Shown here one piece after another: positions 3,448 to 36,977 of a DNA stretch of 64,000 bases (positions within the stretch are counted from its first letter, which is position 1; each line of letters starts with the position of its first letter). Below the pieces are notes generated by a model. It made no database searches. It was not told the origin of the DNA and saw nothing but the letters and a program-made list of their open reading frames with translations. Position numbers and translations under genes: made by a program. The DNA is from Traorella massiliensis (GTDB lineage: Bacteria > Bacillota_I > Bacilli_A > Erysipelotrichales > Erysipelotrichaceae), in the NCBI RefSeq assembly GCF_900104665.1, contig NZ_LT629968.1, positions 424,328-488,327 on the forward strand, read 5' to 3'.

Positions 3448-3664
3448 CCTCTCTTTCTTTAGGGGGTTGCCCTGTTTATGATGTAAGACCTTTTTATATG
3501 TGCCTTACACTTTCTTCGAATAGCAGCTGAGGAAGGAAGTCAAGCGGCAAGCACTTTAGTGCGAGACGCCGTAGGGCAACGCTTGACGAGTGACTTGGAT
3601 GCGATATTCCATATTTCTTTCATAGGATTAATAGAAAACAACATGGCAATTTGCCATGTTGGAA
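3448..3664 (-). ncRNA. Candidate structured leader RNA, copy 3 (upstream of ssb)
   Basis: The core (3534-3664) nearly repeats copies 1 and 2 and ends with the palindrome at 3640-3660. Nearer the gene the primary sequence has changed, yet two hairpins remain: GTAAG/CTTAC and AGGG-CAACC-CCCT, the latter just before the ribosome site. Conservation of form without sequence is the main support for a structured leader. Confidence 0.6.
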
Positions 3665-3677
3665 CCTTAGAAGAAAC

Positions 3678-3867: not shown

Positions 3868-4259
3868 GCTGTTCTTAATAGACCTCCCATATTTTCCTCA
3901 ATACCGATTGCTCCGTATTCTGAACAGTTATCATCGTCTAAATTCAATACATAGGCATACGGGTATCCCATTGTCAATACTTGTCTGTCGTCTGACCATT
4001 CTTCAATATGCTGGCTGATGTAAAGAAGTGAGAGACATTCACCAAATTCAAAAAAGTTGTGAATAACGTGATAAACAACGTTCCCAGTTGTTTCTTCCCA
4101 ATTTCGAATTAGGCTAGTATAATCTGGTTCGATTTCAAAAAGAAAGCTGTGAACGGATTGAAGAATTTCTCCTTCTAGAAAGGCTTCTTCTACACATTTG
4201 TCGAGATTAAGAAGCTTGATTCTTTCAATCGCCTCTTTTTTCTGCAAGTTTTTATCCAT
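3864..4259 (-). CDS. Hypothetical 131-residue element protein
   Basis: An acidic, mixed alpha/beta protein with no family I can name; it carries a helical N-terminus and a C-terminal acidic run (LNLDDDNCSEYGAIGIEE). A strong GGAGGAG ribosome site precedes the ATG and leader copy 4 lies directly upstream, so it is expressed under the same leader as the parB-like and ssb genes. Its stop overlaps the start of a 47-residue gene. A plasmid accessory role is inferred from position only. Confidence 0.7.
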   Translation of the reverse strand: MDKNLQKKEAIERIKLLNLDKCVEEAFLEGEILQSVHSFLFEIEPDYTSLIRNWEETTGNVVYHVIHNFFEFGECLSLLYISQHIEEWSDDRQVLTMGYPYAYVLNLDDDNCSEYGAIGIEENMGGLLRTA

Positions 4260-4261
4260 GA

Positions 4262-4471
4262 TTTCTCCTCCTCTGCGGTATGGTAGCCGCTAACTTAAGT
4301 AAGGCTCATGTACCTTACACTTTCTTTGAATCAGCAGCCGAGGAGGGAAGTCAAGCGGCAAGCACTTTAGTGCGAGACGCCGTAGGGCAACGCTTGACGA
4401 GCGACTTGGATGCGATATTCCATACTTCTTTGTAAATATAAAGAAAAAAACATGGCATTTCATCTGCCATG
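4262..4471 (-). ncRNA. Candidate structured leader RNA, copy 4
   Basis: Contains the core repeat from 4345, a distal hairpin (GTAAGG 4299-4304, CCTTAC 4313-4318) and the proximal GCGG/CCGC hairpin (4275-4290) just before the ribosome site of the 131-residue gene. The palindrome at its far end is degenerate here (CATGGCA, 7-nt spacer, TGCCATG; 4451-4471). Nothing else is seen between 4472 and 4549. Confidence 0.6.
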
Positions 4472-4549
4472 CTGATTGAATAGATAAAGTGTATATAAGT
4501 GTTAAAGAAATATTCATTTTATTGAAAAGCAACAGAAAGTAGTTGGATG

Positions 4550-6155: not shown

Positions 6156-7181
6156 CTATTTATGATTCTTTATGTTATCTAAACCTCGAAGAATACTTTC
6201 TATTAATTCATTTTCCTCATTTATTGAGTAATACTTATATTGAGAAAGAGAAGGGAATATGCTGTCGGGATCAATATCATCCAGCTTTAGAATTCTCCAA
6301 TCTTTTTTATTCGCAACTACATTTGCAAATGCGGTTTTAAGTTCAGCTTTTGCATTTAATGACATTTCATAATTTTTGCTAATGATCAGCAGAACCATAT
6401 CACATTGCCATATTCCTTTCCTAATGGCCTCATGAAGATGCTCTCCTCCTTCAATATTCTTTTTATCTATCCATATATTTAAACCAATGTCTTCAAGATG
6501 ATCAACGATCCTTTGAACGATTTCATTATCTTTCCAGGAATAGGATATGAATAATTTTGGCTGATATTCAGGAGTCAAATGAAAACCTCTTTGTTCTAGT
6601 TCCGAATCTTCTAAAAAGTAAAAGAGTTCCTGAAAAGATAATCTAATATATTCTTCATCAGCTTTATGGTGAAGGCTGCAGCAATTCCATAGCCTTGATT
6701 TCATTTCTTCAAATAGATCCTTCAATGTTTTATCTGAATAAAGGACGATACCACATGAATTTAAATAATTTCGGATTGCTTCAATTTTATTTTGGTCTTC
6801 AGCAACCAGTGCAACTAATGAATCCAGTTTTCCTGGAATATTATTGACGCATAATAAACAAAGATCATTTTCTGATAGTCTGCTGTTAATCCAGTGTACA
6901 GTCTTGATATATTCTGTTCGGGATCCATAGGGAATTTTAAAATAGTGCATTTTACGAGTCATTAGAAATCTCCTTGAAATCATTACGTTATTATTATATA
7001 TCACTACGGGAAAAAAAGGAGACTCTTTTAATTCGAGAAATGATAGAAATCCTATAAAATGAAACAAGTATGAATTGGAATTGTTTTGCTTTTCCAAACA
7101 TATTATATAGTCTTCAGAACAGACATCTGATTTTATTTTATCAAAATTCCTGTAAAATAAATCTTCGGAAATATTTTTCAT
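6156..7181 (-). CDS. TIR-domain protein with uncharacterised N-terminal domain
   Basis: Residues 208-320 form a TIR domain: KLFISYSWKDNEIVQRIV opens it, followed by NIWIDKKNIEGG and DMVLLIISKNYEMS. E280 in LNAKAEL occupies the usual catalytic glutamate position for NAD-cleaving TIR enzymes. Residues 1-200 match no domain I know and could be a sensor. Bacterial TIR proteins often act as anti-phage effectors that deplete NAD. It follows an SSB gene by 17 nt and precedes the HipA-like gene; defence or inter-element competition is inferred, not shown. Confidence 0.85.
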   Translation of the reverse strand: MKNISEDLFYRNFDKIKSDVCSEDYIICLEKQNNSNSYLFHFIGFLSFLELKESPFFPVVIYNNNVMISRRFLMTRKMHYFKIPYGSRTEYIKTVHWINSRLSENDLCLLCVNNIPGKLDSLVALVAEDQNKIEAIRNYLNSCGIVLYSDKTLKDLFEEMKSRLWNCCSLHHKADEEYIRLSFQELFYFLEDSELEQRGFHLTPEYQPKLFISYSWKDNEIVQRIVDHLEDIGLNIWIDKKNIEGGEHLHEAIRKGIWQCDMVLLIISKNYEMSLNAKAELKTAFANVVANKKDWRILKLDDIDPDSIFPSLSQYKYYSINEENELIESILRGLDNIKNHK

Positions 7182-26262: not shown

Positions 26263-26595
26263 TTATCTCATCTCCTTTTCATTTTTTATAAGTTTCAAAA
26301 ATGCAGTCTGTGAAATATTTAATGATTTTGCTGCCTCTCGTGAGGATATTTGTCGCATTTTATAAAGTTCTGCGGCAGAATTGAACTCATTTTTATTTAC
26401 TTTTACTCGAGGCCTTCCCCAATGCATTCCCATTTCTTTCGCTTTTTTTATTCCTTCCATCTGATTTTTCTTATATTTTTGTTTTTGCAGTATATAACTT
26501 TCTAAATCTTTTTGATCTTTTTGTATTTTTTCAAATAGATCCTTATTATCTGAAAGTATTTTTTCCAGATGAATCATTTCCTCATTTGTTAGCAT
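26263..26595 (-). CDS. Resolvase-type HTH protein without catalytic domain, copy B
   Basis: A 110-residue protein: a helical, Lys/Gln-rich N-terminus, then GIKKAKEMGMHWGRPRVKV and an HTH (SSREAAKSLNISQTAFLKL). This is the linker and DNA-binding end of serine recombinases, without the Ser-containing N-terminal domain. It is a tandem paralogue of the gene at 26582, overlapping it by 14 nt. A regulatory DNA-binding role is inferred. Confidence 0.75.
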   Translation of the reverse strand: MLTNEEMIHLEKILSDNKDLFEKIQKDQKDLESYILQKQKYKKNQMEGIKKAKEMGMHWGRPRVKVNKNEFNSAAELYKMRQISSREAAKSLNISQTAFLKLIKNEKEMR

Positions 26596-26929
26596 TTGAT
26601 TTCTCCTCCCCGTATTCTTTATATAGCCTTAAAAATTTTGATTGGGAAACACCCATCATATGCGCAGCCTCACGCGATGTAACTTTCTTTTTGTTATATA
26701 AATCGATTACTGAATCTAAGGTTTTTTTATTGATCTTGATAAAAGGCCTGCCAAATGAAATACCAGCAGCTTTTGCAGATGCAATTCCTTTTTTTATATT
26801 GCTTTTTCTTATTTTCTCTTTTGTGATCAGATAGTCTAATTGCTGCTGATCAGCCTGTATTTTTTCGAATAATTCATTATGATCATTTAATATTATCCTT
26901 AATTCATTCATTTCATTTTCATCCAGCAT
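26582..26929 (-). CDS. Resolvase-type HTH protein without catalytic domain, copy A
   Basis: A 115-residue protein with the same layout as its neighbour: N-terminal helix (MNELRIILNDHNELFEKIQ), GIASAKAAGISFGRPFIKI linker and HTH (TSREAAHMMGVSQSKFLRL). The catalytic serine domain is absent and no remnant of it is seen upstream, so this is a stable protein type and not a broken recombinase. It overlaps the membrane-protein gene upstream by 11 nt. Confidence 0.75.
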   Translation of the reverse strand: MLDENEMNELRIILNDHNELFEKIQADQQQLDYLITKEKIRKSNIKKGIASAKAAGISFGRPFIKINKKTLDSVIDLYNKKKVTSREAAHMMGVSQSKFLRLYKEYGEEKSNANK

Positions 26930-27925: not shown

Positions 27926-28222
27926 CTAGATGGTTTCAAAATCAATGTATAAATAATTTAGCCAAGCTTCAAGACAAGCAATTTTTTCCTGTTCATATTC
28001 ACGTTCTCTATCGCAGTAGGATGCTTCTTCGTGCCATTCTTTGAAACATTCTGTACAGCATCCATAATGTAGGATAGGAATATAAATGACACCCTCCGGC
28101 AATTCTTTATTGCAGAAGTCACATTTATCGCCAAAGAGCCCAACCCTTTGCAGCATTCGCTGACTTAAAGCATCTATTTCATAAATCGTAAATCTTTTAT
28201 GAGTAATTTTTTTCTTGATCAT
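27926..28222 (-). CDS. Cys-rich 98-residue protein, zinc-ribbon-like
   Basis: CDFCNKELPEG and HYGCCTECFKEW give a CxxC...CxxC arrangement (about residues 36-63) typical of a small zinc-binding domain, followed by a charged helical tail. AAAGGAAAATAAA precedes the ATG. It is 10 nt upstream of the 263-residue gene. Function unknown. Confidence 0.68.
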   Translation of the reverse strand: MIKKKITHKRFTIYEIDALSQRMLQRVGLFGDKCDFCNKELPEGVIYIPILHYGCCTECFKEWHEEASYCDREREYEQEKIACLEAWLNYLYIDFETI

Positions 28223-28264: not shown

Positions 28265-28522
28265 CTATAAATAATTAACAATAAAAGTAGATAATATACC
28301 TAAAATAATCCAAAATAATATAAAAGACACTATAAATACATCAAGAGATGATAAAATTTTGCGCTTTTTACAGATTCTTTGAAATATTAGAACAATTGTT
28401 ACTGCTAATAAAACTAATATTAGCATCAAGATAGTCCCTTTTATATCAATAGACCAAGAGTTTTTATCCAACTGCAAATTAAATCTGGTCGTTATAGTGT
28501 TTAAAATAATTACCTTATTCAT
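28265..28522 (-). CDS. Small membrane protein of module A
   Basis: AAAGGAAAAGTT sets ATG at 28522, overlapping the end of the repressor gene by 8 nt. The 85-residue product has two helices (about 29-48 and 59-80). No family recognised. Together with the repressor and the divergent 293-residue membrane protein it forms module A, matched in layout by module B at 29731-31038. Confidence 0.65.
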   Translation of the reverse strand: MNKVIILNTITTRFNLQLDKNSWSIDIKGTILMLILVLLAVTIVLIFQRICKKRKILSSLDVFIVSFILFWIILGILSTFIVNYL

Positions 28523-28775
28523 AACTTTTCCTTTCTTTGTCACCGAGTGCCACATTTTCAAACTGCGATAGATCTTTGTAGATAAAATCATCAATAGTAA
28601 CTTGAAAGAAGGAGGCCAGTTTGGAAATGGTATCGATCGTGATCTTCTGTTCAGAAGTTTTGCTGGTTTCAATATTATAAATAGTCATGAAATCAACATC
28701 TATTTTTGAGGCTAATTCTCGTAAGCTTAGTTGATATATTTTTCTATAATAAAGTAAATTTTGACTTATATGCAT
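28515..28775 (-). CDS. XRE-family repressor of module A
   Basis: An 86-residue Cro/CI-type HTH protein: LRELASKIDVDFMTIYNIE is the recognition region. AAAGGAGAATTC precedes the ATG. Bases 28551-28661, encoding most of the C-terminal half, are identical to 30110-30220 of the second repressor, while the recognition half differs. It is divergent from the 293-residue membrane protein gene and should bind the palindrome at 28804-28825. Confidence 0.85.
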   Translation of the reverse strand: MHISQNLLYYRKIYQLSLRELASKIDVDFMTIYNIETSKTSEQKITIDTISKLASFFQVTIDDFIYKDLSQFENVALGDKERKSYE

Positions 28776-28803
28776 ATTTGAATTCTCCTTTCTTTGTAAT
28801 ATA

Positions 28804-28825
28804 ATGTATTATCGTAATAATACAT
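28804..28825. promoter_or_regulatory. Candidate operator of module A
   Basis: ATGTATTA and TAATACAT arms (8 bp, perfect) around TCGTAA, in the 59-bp gap between the divergent repressor and membrane-protein genes. GGAGG for the plus-strand gene follows at once. Confidence 0.6.
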
Positions 28826-28834
28826 GGAGGATTT

Positions 28835-29716
28835 ATGGATACTTTAAGGGGGATATTTAAATTTATCAAAAAATTAAATGAAGAATGGGGATCACTTTTT
28901 ACTGCATTTCTTTCATTTTTAGGTACAGCTATTTATGTAGTTTTCATCAACTTTTTTTTGAGAAGAGTATATGATGGGTATTTAATGCGTTTTGGTATTG
29001 ACTCTTCAATTACAATAAGTTCACCTATGTCAAATTTATATGTGTTATTTTTTATATTTGGAACAGCATTATCTTTGATTACATTTTTTACACCAATGAG
29101 ATTATCTAAGGCGTTAGGATTGTCAGTTCAAAATAAAGAGGAAAAAATATCAAAAAAACTAGTATGCAAGTTTTTTATTCTTGATTTTCTATTGATCTTT
29201 ATTCCTACGCTTATTTATTTATCTTATTCAACAAACATAAAAATTTCTTCACTATTTATTTGGGGAATAGTTTATATGGCAGGGACAGCTTTTTTTTCAT
29301 TCATGATTTCTGTTGTATCAACAATTTATATTGTTGCAGATCTTATTTTTCAGAAGAAAAGTCGGAATAACGATACTTCTAAAAATAGTAAGACATCAAA
29401 TGATTTTTTATCAATTTTATCTAGTAAAAGTGTAAAGCACATAATTCTTTCTGTATTCCTTCTTGTAATCTTATCAATTTTTGATTATGCTGCTGTTTTT
29501 TATGGAAAAATGGTTCCGTCCTTAAAAAAAGCATATCCATCATTTACAGTAAATCAGGTTGAATATATAGTTATTGCAGAAATGCCTGATAACGAGTATT
29601 TAATAGTAGATCTTGAGTCAATGGCCAATGAAACTAAATATACTATTCAATCACTTGAAGGTATTTATCTCAAAGATAAATTGACATCTGATTTTTTGAA
29701 ATATTTAAGTGATTAG
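28835..29716 (+). CDS. Polytopic membrane protein of module A
   Basis: A 293-residue protein with about five membrane helices (near 22-42, 67-87, 112-130, 140-168, 200-220) and a C-terminal outer or cytoplasmic domain ending KDKLTSDFLKYLSD. GGAGGATTT precedes the ATG, the same ribosome site as its module B counterpart. No family recognised. Divergent pairing with an XRE repressor suggests tightly controlled, possibly toxic or exclusion, function. Confidence 0.75.
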   Translation: MDTLRGIFKFIKKLNEEWGSLFTAFLSFLGTAIYVVFINFFLRRVYDGYLMRFGIDSSITISSPMSNLYVLFFIFGTALSLITFFTPMRLSKALGLSVQNKEEKISKKLVCKFFILDFLLIFIPTLIYLSYSTNIKISSLFIWGIVYMAGTAFFSFMISVVSTIYIVADLIFQKKSRNNDTSKNSKTSNDFLSILSSKSVKHIILSVFLLVILSIFDYAAVFYGKMVPSLKKAYPSFTVNQVEYIVIAEMPDNEYLIVDLESMANETKYTIQSLEGIYLKDKLTSDFLKYLSD

Positions 29717-29730
29717 CTATATTTCATCTG

Positions 29731-30015
29731 TTACGGTAAAATTAAAATTGTGAAGAGTAACGATGACATTATTATAATTATAAATAAAATACCTTTAAAT
29801 GCAGTGTTTAAACCTAAGCTTGTATATTCATTAAAGAAACAACGTAGTAAAGCAGCCGCAAGTAATAGATAAATTAGATTGATAAAACATATATATTTAA
29901 TGAAATTGTGGAAAAATTTGCTTTCATATTTTCTATATAGTAAATATAAAAGAGCGATTATAAAACAAATCAGTCCCGGCATTAACATATATACAAATAA
30001 CTCTGCTTTCGTCAT
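29731..30015 (-). CDS. Small membrane protein of module B
   Basis: A 94-residue protein with three hydrophobic helices (about 8-28, 40-60, 73-93) and almost no soluble part. It follows the module B repressor gene on the minus strand, mirroring module A. It ends 15 bp from the convergent end of the 293-residue gene. No family recognised. Confidence 0.6.
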   Translation of the reverse strand: MTKAELFVYMLMPGLICFIIALLYLLYRKYESKFFHNFIKYICFINLIYLLLAAALLRCFFNEYTSLGLNTAFKGILFIIIIMSSLLFTILILP

Positions 30016-30076
30016 AGAGGATTATCTTCCTTTCTTTATTTACTTTTTAAAGTGAATTTAATCCAAAACTTTTTTA

Positions 30077-30334
30077 TCATAAATGATTTCTTTCCGTGTC
30101 ACCCGGTGACACATTTTCAAACTGCGATAGATCTTTGTAGATAAAATCATCAATAGTAACTTGAAAGAAGGAGGCCAGTTTGGAAATGGTATCGATCGTG
30201 ATCTTCTGTTCAGAAGTTTTTCCGGTTTCAATTCTAAATATCGTCAAATAGCTGATGCCTGTATATTTTTCAATTTCTCGCTGGGATAAATTCGCTCTAT
30301 TTCTTAATAATTTAAGATTTCTTTTAATATTCAT
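30077..30334 (-). CDS. XRE-family repressor of module B
   Basis: An 85-residue Cro/CI-type HTH protein (LSQREIEKYTGISYLTIFRIE). Its C-terminal half is encoded by 111 bases identical to module A's repressor, the recognition half is different, and its candidate operator (30371-30390) differs accordingly. AAAGGAATT precedes the ATG. Confidence 0.85.
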   Translation of the reverse strand: MNIKRNLKLLRNRANLSQREIEKYTGISYLTIFRIETGKTSEQKITIDTISKLASFFQVTIDDFIYKDLSQFENVSPGDTERNHL

Positions 30335-30370
30335 TTAAATAATTCCTTTCATTTTTACTATTTGGTATAA

Positions 30371-30390
30371 TATATACATCGTTGTATATA
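30371..30390. promoter_or_regulatory. Candidate operator of module B
   Basis: TATATACA and TGTATATA arms (8 bp, perfect) around TCGT, in the gap between the divergent repressor and membrane-protein genes. The TCGT centre is shared with the module A operator; the arms differ. Confidence 0.6.
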
Positions 30391-30399
30391 GGAGGATTT

Positions 30400-31038
30400 A
30401 TGTATAAAAAGTTATTTGATAATATTCGAGATTCATTTATTTGCTTTTCCTTTTTTATTGTTTCATTAGCTATACCAGGAATCTATCTTTGCATAGCATT
30501 GCCTATATGGAGATTGACGTTGTTAAACGAGCATCTAATAACATTTCAGTCAGATGCCAAGCTTGTTGGATCTACAGTAGCTCTTTTTATTTTTTTGCTA
30601 TATCTTTTTTATCTTTTTGAATGTCAGGTTTTAAAAATAATTAAATTATTTCTTTTAGATTTGTTTAAAAGAAGTAAGATAAAGTATGAAAGCATCATCT
30701 CTAATTTTTATGTTATTTTAAAATTGATGAATAGTGTTGTCATAGCATTTATATTATTTTTTAAAGATATATTTTTTCAGTTTTTTCATAGTAGTATTGG
30801 CTCTGGTGTAGATTCGAACACATCATTAATTTTTTTCTCTTTAATACTGTGTTCGGCTGCAATTTCAATCACTTGTTTACAGATTTCATTTGAGAGAGTA
30901 TATTCAGATAAAAGAGAGGTAGAAAAATATTTCGAGAATACTAAAAAGATAAGATATAAGGTACAGAAGGGCAAAGGGATAGCAAAATATAATCATAAAA
31001 AACAGAAAATTTATCCAAAATTTCAGGAATACAAGTAA
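30400..31038 (+). CDS. Polytopic membrane protein of module B
   Basis: AGGAGGATTT sets ATG at 30400. The 212-residue product has about four membrane helices and a basic C-terminus (KVQKGKGIAKYNHKKQKIY). It shares topology and gene position, but little obvious sequence, with the 293-residue protein of module A. Its last 135 bases overlap the end of a convergent minus-strand gene. Confidence 0.72.
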   Translation: MYKKLFDNIRDSFICFSFFIVSLAIPGIYLCIALPIWRLTLLNEHLITFQSDAKLVGSTVALFIFLLYLFYLFECQVLKIIKLFLLDLFKRSKIKYESIISNFYVILKLMNSVVIAFILFFKDIFFQFFHSSIGSGVDSNTSLIFFSLILCSAAISITCLQISFERVYSDKREVEKYFENTKKIRYKVQKGKGIAKYNHKKQKIYPKFQEYK

Positions 31039-31158
31039 TATTTTTTTTAGACTGGTTCTAATATTGAGTTTTTTATATTTTTTTGAAGTAACATTGAATG
31101 CTTCCTGCTCTTCTAATTCTCTTCTTTCTCTTTTGGGTAAGTTATCATAGCTGTTCAT
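30904..31158 (-). CDS. Small membrane protein, convergent overlap with module B
   Basis: GGAGGAAAATTAC precedes the ATG. The 84-residue product has a charged start (YDNLPKRERRELEEQEA) and two helices in its C-terminal half. That half lies antisense to the end of the module B membrane gene. The strong ribosome site argues the gene is real. It lies downstream of the two structured repeats at 31.3-31.6 kb. Confidence 0.55.
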   Translation of the reverse strand: MNSYDNLPKRERRELEEQEAFNVTSKKYKKLNIRTSLKKILLVFLKFWINFLFFMIIFCYPFALLYLISYLFSILEIFFYLSFI

Positions 31159-32177: not shown

Positions 32178-32292
32178 ATCTGTTTTCCTTCATTAGATTG
32201 GTCCAGCTGGTATCATTTAGAATGACTTTAATCAGTGCAAAAATGGCGATAAAAGCTATCAGATACTTAAAATCAATTACAATATTAATCAT
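32158..32292 (-). CDS. Small 44-residue membrane protein
   Basis: AAAGGAGGAAATTTTA sets ATG at 32292. The product has one hydrophobic helix (FKYLIAFIAIFALIKVIL) and a charged tail. It is the first gene after leader copy 5. A longer upstream frame would read through the leader and is rejected. Confidence 0.62.
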   Translation of the reverse strand: MINIVIDFKYLIAFIAIFALIKVILNDTSWTNLMKENRYDKAQI

Positions 32293-32299
32293 TAAAATT

Positions 32300-32470
32300 T
32301 CCTCCTTTGTGGCATGGTAACCACGAACTCCGTAAGGATCATGTACCTTACACTTTCTTCGAATAGCAGCCAAGAAGGGAAGTCAAGCGGCAAGCACTTT
32401 AGTGCGAGACGCCGTAGGGCAACGCTTGATGACTGACTTGGTTGCGATATTTCATACTTCTTTTTCATGG
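32300..32470 (-). ncRNA. Candidate structured leader RNA, copy 5
   Basis: Core repeat 32377-32460, distal hairpin GTAAGG/CCTTAC (32332-32351) and proximal hairpin GTGG-TTACCATG-CCAC (32309-32324) before the ribosome site. Relative to copies 2 and 4 the proximal stem changes a C-G pair to U-A on both arms. The palindrome beyond it is reduced to a weak CCTGG...CCAGG (32491-32507). Confidence 0.65.
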
Positions 32471-32520
32471 CGATTAGCTTAAAAATAAAACCTGGGAAAT
32501 GACCAGGCTAACTGAATATT

Positions 32521-36646: not shown

Positions 36647-36977
36647 AATCTACTATCAAGTTTTTTTAAATTTGTGTTTATAGTGTTGTCATCACCTTAG
36701 ACTATGGATAGCATATCGTGCATCATTGGAATTTCACCAGCCCGCTTGGTCGGGCGACTCAGTTAACGTCAAGTACCATTATATCCAATAGCCTGTCATC
36801 GCGTACACATATTGATCGCTATTATTTTTTTAAAATAATAAGTCACGGCGTACGGTATTCTCGCTATTTGCTCTTGGGAAGTTCCACAGCCCGTATTCAG
36901 TTATCAAAGAGCAAAATACTCTTTGCAAAAACAACTGACACAGACTATCGAACAGTTTCAAAAAGTTCGGAGAAGAT
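36647..36977. other. Non-coding boundary region between element and tRNA cluster
   Basis: No convincing protein gene. It has a GCCCG-CTTGGT-CGGGC hairpin near 36740 and an AT-rich centre near 36825-36840. It does not match 5S rRNA, tmRNA, RNase P or a common riboswitch by eye. The element's right junction should lie here or in the tRNA-Gly 3' end. Confidence 0.4.

Follow-up and report, generated by a model that had tools for sequence, protein, structure and literature searches.

Two modules sharing an identical block

The window analysed here, a stretch of 64,000 nucleotides (nt) of the Traorella massiliensis genome (contig NZ_LT629968.1, positions 424,328 to 488,327), contains at 28265-31038 two neighbouring modules, A and B, in each of which a short XRE repressor is encoded divergently from a larger membrane protein. 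We propose that each module is an autoregulated repressor switch controlling a variable membrane protein, and that this cassette is shared by several integrative and conjugative elements (ICEs) of the Erysipelotrichaceae, a reading to which we give an even chance of being correct. The arrangement is the one described in the first-pass annotation of this DNA, namely a small membrane protein and an XRE repressor on the minus strand, a large membrane protein on the plus strand, and a palindrome between them. The features are the following (coordinates are positions in the window; aa, amino acids; TM, transmembrane segments; ORF, open reading frame; HTH, helix-turn-helix; RBS, ribosome-binding site):

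28265..28522, minus strand: small membrane protein A, 85 aa, 2 predicted TM (ORF, hydropathy)
28515..28775, minus strand: repressor A, XRE/Cro-CI type HTH, 86 aa (Pfam HTH_3, 3e-8)
28551..28661, minus strand: identical block, copy A, repressor codons 39-75
28778..28805, plus strand: promoter-like TTGAAT-16-TATAAT of membrane protein A (consensus match only)
28804..28825: candidate operator A, ATGTATTAT-CGTA-ATAATACAT, 9-bp arms, 4-bp spacer, between the membrane-protein A -10 (TATAAT) and the RBS
28835..29716, plus strand: membrane protein A, 293 aa, ~5 TM and a C-terminal domain of ~70 aa (ORF; low-confidence model)
29731..30015, minus strand: small membrane protein B, 94 aa, 3 predicted TM
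30077..30334, minus strand: repressor B, XRE type, 85 aa (Pfam HTH_3, 2e-12)
30110..30220, minus strand: identical block, copy B
30371..30390: candidate operator B, TATATACA-TCGT-TGTATATA, 8-bp arms, 4-bp spacer
30400..31038, plus strand: membrane protein B, 212 aa, 4 TM

The 111 identical bases claimed for the C-terminal halves of the repressors proved to be an exact match (111/111 bp, 28551-28661 in copy A and 30110-30220 in copy B). The block comprises codons 39-75 of both genes, and all 37 amino acids are equal, synonymous positions included. The recognition halves differ as had been noted, with 60/114 nt and 14/38 aa identical in codons 1-38, and so do the operators and membrane proteins; the contrast between block and N-terminal half is highly significant (111/111 versus 60/114, Fisher test, p = 3.4e-20). 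The alignment can be extended around the block to 160 nt with 92% identity, and outside the block the 3' ends of the two genes show little similarity. Because homology between the repressor genes is limited to the block and short flanks, the observation amounts to a single homogenisation event of local extent, and because all 37 codons are the same at synonymous positions too, selection at the protein level cannot account for it. As judged from these sequences, the pattern fits N-terminal halves of different origin and a C-terminal half of single recent origin, as would result from gene conversion or recombination between neighbours, and the block was probably homogenised through recent gene conversion. 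The N-terminal half of repressor B has 50% identity to that of a repressor from another genome of the family (G150, cassette C10, see below) versus 37% to that of repressor A. Repressors A and B share with the repressor of a second genome (G004) two additional residues in the block after the recognition helix, which the other cassette repressors do not have. The two blocks are direct repeats, and therefore a single crossover between them would remove 1,559 bp; by deduction from the sequence, this would leave one in-frame module composed of small membrane protein A, repressor B, and membrane protein B.

It had been suggested that the block might serve as an anchor flanked by variable cassettes in other genomes. 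However, it was found at no other locus within the databases searched: block peptide patterns had no relative in 84,980 GTDB species genomes and 2.9 million IMG/VR viral contigs, tblastn of the block against plasmid and phage records returned nothing, and four further members of the genus lack the 111-bp DNA block in their genomes. Given that the search was at the species level, anchors between strains of the same species might still exist. The view that the cassettes were diversified by recombination is backed by the mosaic repressor genes and by related elements carrying other membrane proteins, but not by an anchor elsewhere. The first-pass annotation had named as counter-evidence a block unique to this locus together with modules occurring everywhere as a fixed pair; within our searches the block is unique, but the modules are not a fixed pair, because single cassettes with other membrane proteins are found elsewhere.

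Repressor fold and candidate operators

Both repressors belong to the XRE/Cro-CI family, with HTH_3 above the Pfam cutoff in each and a five-helix fold in the model of repressor A. This AlphaFold2 model, for which an alignment of eleven repressors was the input, has a predicted local distance difference test score (pLDDT) of 84.5 and helices at residues 3-13, 18-25, 29-36, 47-56, and 61-66. The nearest solved folds are CapH, SinR, HipB, and the P22 c2 and 434 repressors, and CylR2 (1utx) also matches, all with E-values of at least 0.004, in line with the small size of the domain. In the model the block boundary (residue 38/39) lies just past recognition helix 3, and residues 39-75 span helices 4-5. 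Helices 4 and 5 are the customary dimer side of the XRE fold. The shared C-terminal half is thus probably the dimerisation or partner-docking half, as far as the model can tell.

The candidate operators A and B both overlap the end of a TATAAT box and extend to the GGAGG that belongs to the respective large membrane-protein gene. Dinucleotide shuffles reach equal arm length in 0.5% (A) and 2.5-4% (B) of trials. For membrane protein B, a TTG at 30382 was considered as start and rejected in favour of the ATG at 30400, which has GGAGG directly upstream. Matches to sigma-70 promoters in the module region are not commoner than in shuffled sequence. The 4-bp-spaced palindrome also appears in other cassettes of the family, where the arms are longer than in shuffles (31 versus 22.3, p = 0.0042) over seven intergenic regions, none of which was used to define the 4-bp spacer taken from A and B. 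The region of genome G024 is the only one of the seven that is individually convincing (7-4-7); those of G287 and G269 are 5-4-5, and in the G150 intergenic regions a 4-bp-spaced palindrome was not seen.

Related cassettes and their membrane proteins

Relatives were sought with a profile built from three repressors, which was run against 316 genomes belonging to the order; only short XRE hits were followed, XRE hits being common. Five other genomes of the family contain ICE-like loci in which a short XRE gene is divergent from a different TM protein and adjoins par or type IV secretion system (T4SS) genes. The repressor is short in each, and the partner membrane proteins have one to five predicted TM. 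G004, from the same genus, has the order ParA, ParB, divergent cassette, and a homolog of the zinc-finger-like protein of the window, and its membrane protein has 196 aa and 4 TM. Three cassettes (C10, C4, C7) are found in G150, each on an ICE-like stretch of its own; near one of them lies another short XRE gene, and the single-TM partner in C7 may be truncated. G269 has one cassette, sited between ParA and ParB, and in both G287 and G024 the cassette has a SpaA-repeat adhesin on one side and small hydrophobic ORFs on the other, with a TrbL-like protein in G287. A divergent cassette is absent from the further XRE loci L106-L113, L115, and L116, with L109, L110, and L115 lacking any repressor match. 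The ICEs are distant from each other (27% identity for ParA, 23% for VirB4), so that exchange is less well supported by the differences between their membrane proteins than by the contrast within the window.

No relatedness was detected between the large membrane proteins A and B, nor between the two small ones. By shuffle z-scores and 81 membrane-protein decoys, membrane protein A clearly groups with proteins of genomes G054 and G016 and probably with that of G024 (z 5.4; G024-G054 z 7.8). Membrane protein B shows weak similarity to its counterpart in the G004 cassette (z 5.1), and the C10 and C4 proteins of G150 constitute a third type (z 5.3). G016 has no adjacent repressor, and at G054 none is seen in the 160 bp that remain before the upstream end of the contig. 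No membrane protein, large or small, exceeded a family cutoff in Pfam, NCBIfam, PHROGs, or PADLOC, searches of plasmids and IMG/VR gave no relatives, nor did a search of phages with membrane protein A, and a class-level search with the latter found no additional full-length relatives. An AlphaFold2 model of membrane protein A was set aside as too poor (pLDDT 46.6).

The host element

Both modules lie within an ICE of ~58,038 bp that is bounded on both sides by a 40-bp direct repeat and located beside a tRNA cluster. A serine recombinase, a MobL relaxase, VirD4, and a VirB4-like ATPase on this one bounded element identify it as an ICE, and it also encodes TrbL, ParA, and two ParB proteins. The 40-bp repeats are likely the att sites; the assignment is likely rather than proven because a third copy with 2 mismatches is present on contig 9. 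The plasmid megablast matches listed are short stretches over the tRNA cluster and were discarded.

A palindrome, TGGCAA-N-TTGCCA, is found in 22 exact copies over the ICE, mostly intergenic, and in none of 100 shuffles of the window. Eleven copies are in the window (111, 817, 854, 2349, 3644, 3682, 6136, 8198, 14252, 14598, 22087) and the other 11 are upstream of it, reaching about G000:C8:407956. None lies between 22101 and 37000, and the copies are thus outside the module region. In this they are similar to parS sites or to the dispersed operators of KorB. A different dispersed palindrome, GTCAAC-S-GTTGAC, is found in the G004 ICE, with 12 copies in loci L063 (8716, 9119, 10828, 12025, 13553, 14534, 16502) and L064 (five further). 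One of these is inside the 3' end of the G004 XRE gene, at the place where repressor B has a palindrome as well:

30096..30112: palindrome GTGTCACC-C-GGTGACAC at the 3' end of repressor B, with a degenerate copy in A at 28538-28552

Proposed mechanism

In the proposed switch, which would sit where the transfer region begins, the gene of the short XRE repressor would open a unit on the strand of the transfer genes. The repressor is predicted to bind the palindrome that separates the -10 of the divergent gene from its RBS, and once bound it would silence the multi-TM membrane protein and, probably, its own expression. The small membrane protein is encoded right after the repressor (in module A the last 8 nt of the repressor gene also belong to the small membrane-protein gene, as read from the sequence together with the RBS) and may, by analogy with CylR1, tune or release it. 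With the same C-terminal half but different DNA-reading halves and operators, repressors A and B would each control their own membrane protein. Since the membrane protein would be repressed in the resident state, a burst of synthesis would follow entry of the ICE into a naive cell or release from repression. The likeliest role of a protein made in this way would be the exclusion of related elements or establishment. The genes, the identical block, the mosaic, the palindromes, the ICE context, and the related cassettes are observed; repressor binding, the dimerising role of the block, the expression burst, and the function of the membrane protein are all steps that we infer. As supposed at the outset, diversifying selection on a role in immunity, exclusion, or inhibition of phages is plausible on the basis of the ICE context and the par and T4SS neighbours. 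Concerning anti-phage defence, no PADLOC model matched beyond the bare XRE domain.

Several observations weigh against the proposed switch. The small membrane protein is not universal, with no obvious one in G004, G269, and G024. The relationships of the membrane proteins beyond G054 and G016 are weak at the sequence level (z about 5), and the lack of a visible adjacent XRE gene at G016 and G054 suggests that the membrane protein can exist without the repressor. In addition, the palindromes are individually convincing in only three of nine regions (A, B, and G024).

Comparison with known systems

The closest parallel for the repressor pair is RK2/RP4, in which KorA and TrbA have a common C-terminal domain for dimerisation and for cooperativity with the ParB-family protein KorB (PMC2680271). 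As there, a single conjugative element encodes two repressors with a common C-terminal domain and different DNA-binding domains, par genes are nearby, and dispersed palindromes with a single central base are found on the same element (PMC2680271, PMC7314908). However, the likeness to KorA and TrbA stops short of demonstrated homology, and the dispersed palindromes of the ICE are located away from the modules. The CylR1/CylR2 system of Enterococcus faecalis consists of a small 3-TM protein and an XRE repressor divergent from the target promoter, and CylR1 is thought to modulate CylR2 (PMC3709268). Both modules likewise have an XRE repressor and a small TM protein in one unit divergent from a putative target, but the target of CylR is a lantibiotic operon and that of the modules a membrane protein, and the resemblance is one of layout, no Pfam, NCBIfam, or PHROGs family above cutoff joining the small membrane proteins to CylR1. 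Action at divergent promoters is also known from Rco of pLS20 (PMC6635565). Ses of pLS20 and Eex and Sfx of IncC/SXT are variable exclusion proteins that come in groups on conjugative elements, and exclusion genes frequently adjoin VirB6-like genes (PMC6635565, PMC11493245). In contrast to the repressor-linked membrane proteins of the modules, those exclusion proteins are at least weakly constitutive, and no sequence similarity to them is shown.

Alternative explanations

The modules might instead be toxin-like or addiction modules, in which the large membrane protein is harmful and is silenced by the XRE repressor, thus stabilising the ICE or punishing loss of the repressor, possibly with the small membrane protein as a direct antidote. 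We consider this doubtful but worth keeping in mind. The best family matches of the repressors include the antitoxin-type XRE models HipB, PezA, and HigA (below cutoff), the fold resembles HipB, and the modules are repeated and reside on a mobile element. Moreover, Makarova 2009 set aside conserved pairs of XRE repressor and membrane protein as possible novel toxin-antitoxin systems (PMC2701414), and the conserved pairing of the two kinds of protein is what the modules have in common with them. However, those pairs contain PA2784-, YoaS-, and PA4076-like exporters or permeases, with which no common family was found for the modules, a direct comparison not being part of the search. Curated antitoxin and toxin families of type II systems were not reached at cutoff, divergent genes with a repressor acting at the promoter differ in layout from co-operonic toxin-antitoxin genes, and the membrane proteins are like no known toxin family.

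It could also be that the XRE protein is mainly a switch of the transfer operon, similar to Rco or ImmR, with the membrane protein as sensor or anti-repressor and the variation reflecting coevolution of the signal. The XRE gene heads the transfer-gene strand in the window, G004, G024, and G287, and pLS20 Rco works at overlapping divergent promoters (PMC6635565, PMC4207663). However, the convergent gene 15 bp past small membrane protein B makes module B an unlikely driver of a transfer operon, and read-through from the XRE promoter to the transfer genes is hypothetical; we regard this explanation as unlikely.

A more far-reaching and, in our opinion, rather improbable possibility is a previously undescribed polymorphic conflict system carried by Erysipelotrichaceae ICEs and made up of interchangeable cassettes of XRE repressor and membrane protein. 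The common C-terminal half would dock an element-wide ParB-like co-repressor bound to the dispersed palindromes, and the DNA-reading half, operator, and membrane protein would turn over jointly, so that the specificity of exclusion or entry would differ from element to element.

A plain tandem duplication of the XRE gene, with the C-terminal half held by selection on the protein and not by recombination, would agree with the adjacent, directly oriented modules and with C-terminal motifs such as DDF/L kept in other XRE proteins of the group, but 37 codons identical at synonymous positions next to 38 codons differing in 54/114 bases refute it, barring a constraint on the nucleotides of the block, and make it extremely unlikely.

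Neighbouring genes and other observations

Downstream of module A the following gene is found:

27926..28222, minus strand: zinc-finger-like protein, with a homolog also after the XRE gene in the G004 ICE

Further downstream of module A, 26263-26595 and 26582-26929 encode adjacent similar small proteins with an HTH-like C-terminal part. On the other side, an ORF at 30904-31158 (minus strand, 84 aa, 2 TM, GGAGG RBS) overlaps the 3' end of the membrane protein B gene, and a comparable convergent overlap of two membrane-protein ORFs is seen in the G004 cassette. Elsewhere in the ICE, a TIR-domain protein (6156-7181, TIR_2, 6.7e-22) is encoded near a CHAP hydrolase and T4SS genes, and an Rfam pemK RNA motif barely over threshold (36723-36782) lies near the right end. 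Several minus-strand genes of the ICE are preceded by a repeat of ~140-235 nt whose copies are 67-99% alike:

1-139, 2143-2377, 3498-3672, 4248-4483, 32281-32515: copies of the ~140-235 nt repeat

It has no Rfam match at gathering thresholds and is possibly a repeated leader RNA.

Significance

In the open-access literature on Erysipelotrichaceae and ICEs we found nothing on an exclusion or establishment system of this kind. Repressors A and B offer a clean example from nature in which the DNA-reading half was exchanged while the probable dimerisation half stayed fixed, from which follows the odd prediction that heterodimers of A and B could form that would be poor binders of either palindrome. 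If it is true that the membrane proteins gate the entry of related elements, the modules would represent an exclusion or establishment system for the conjugative elements of a common gut family.
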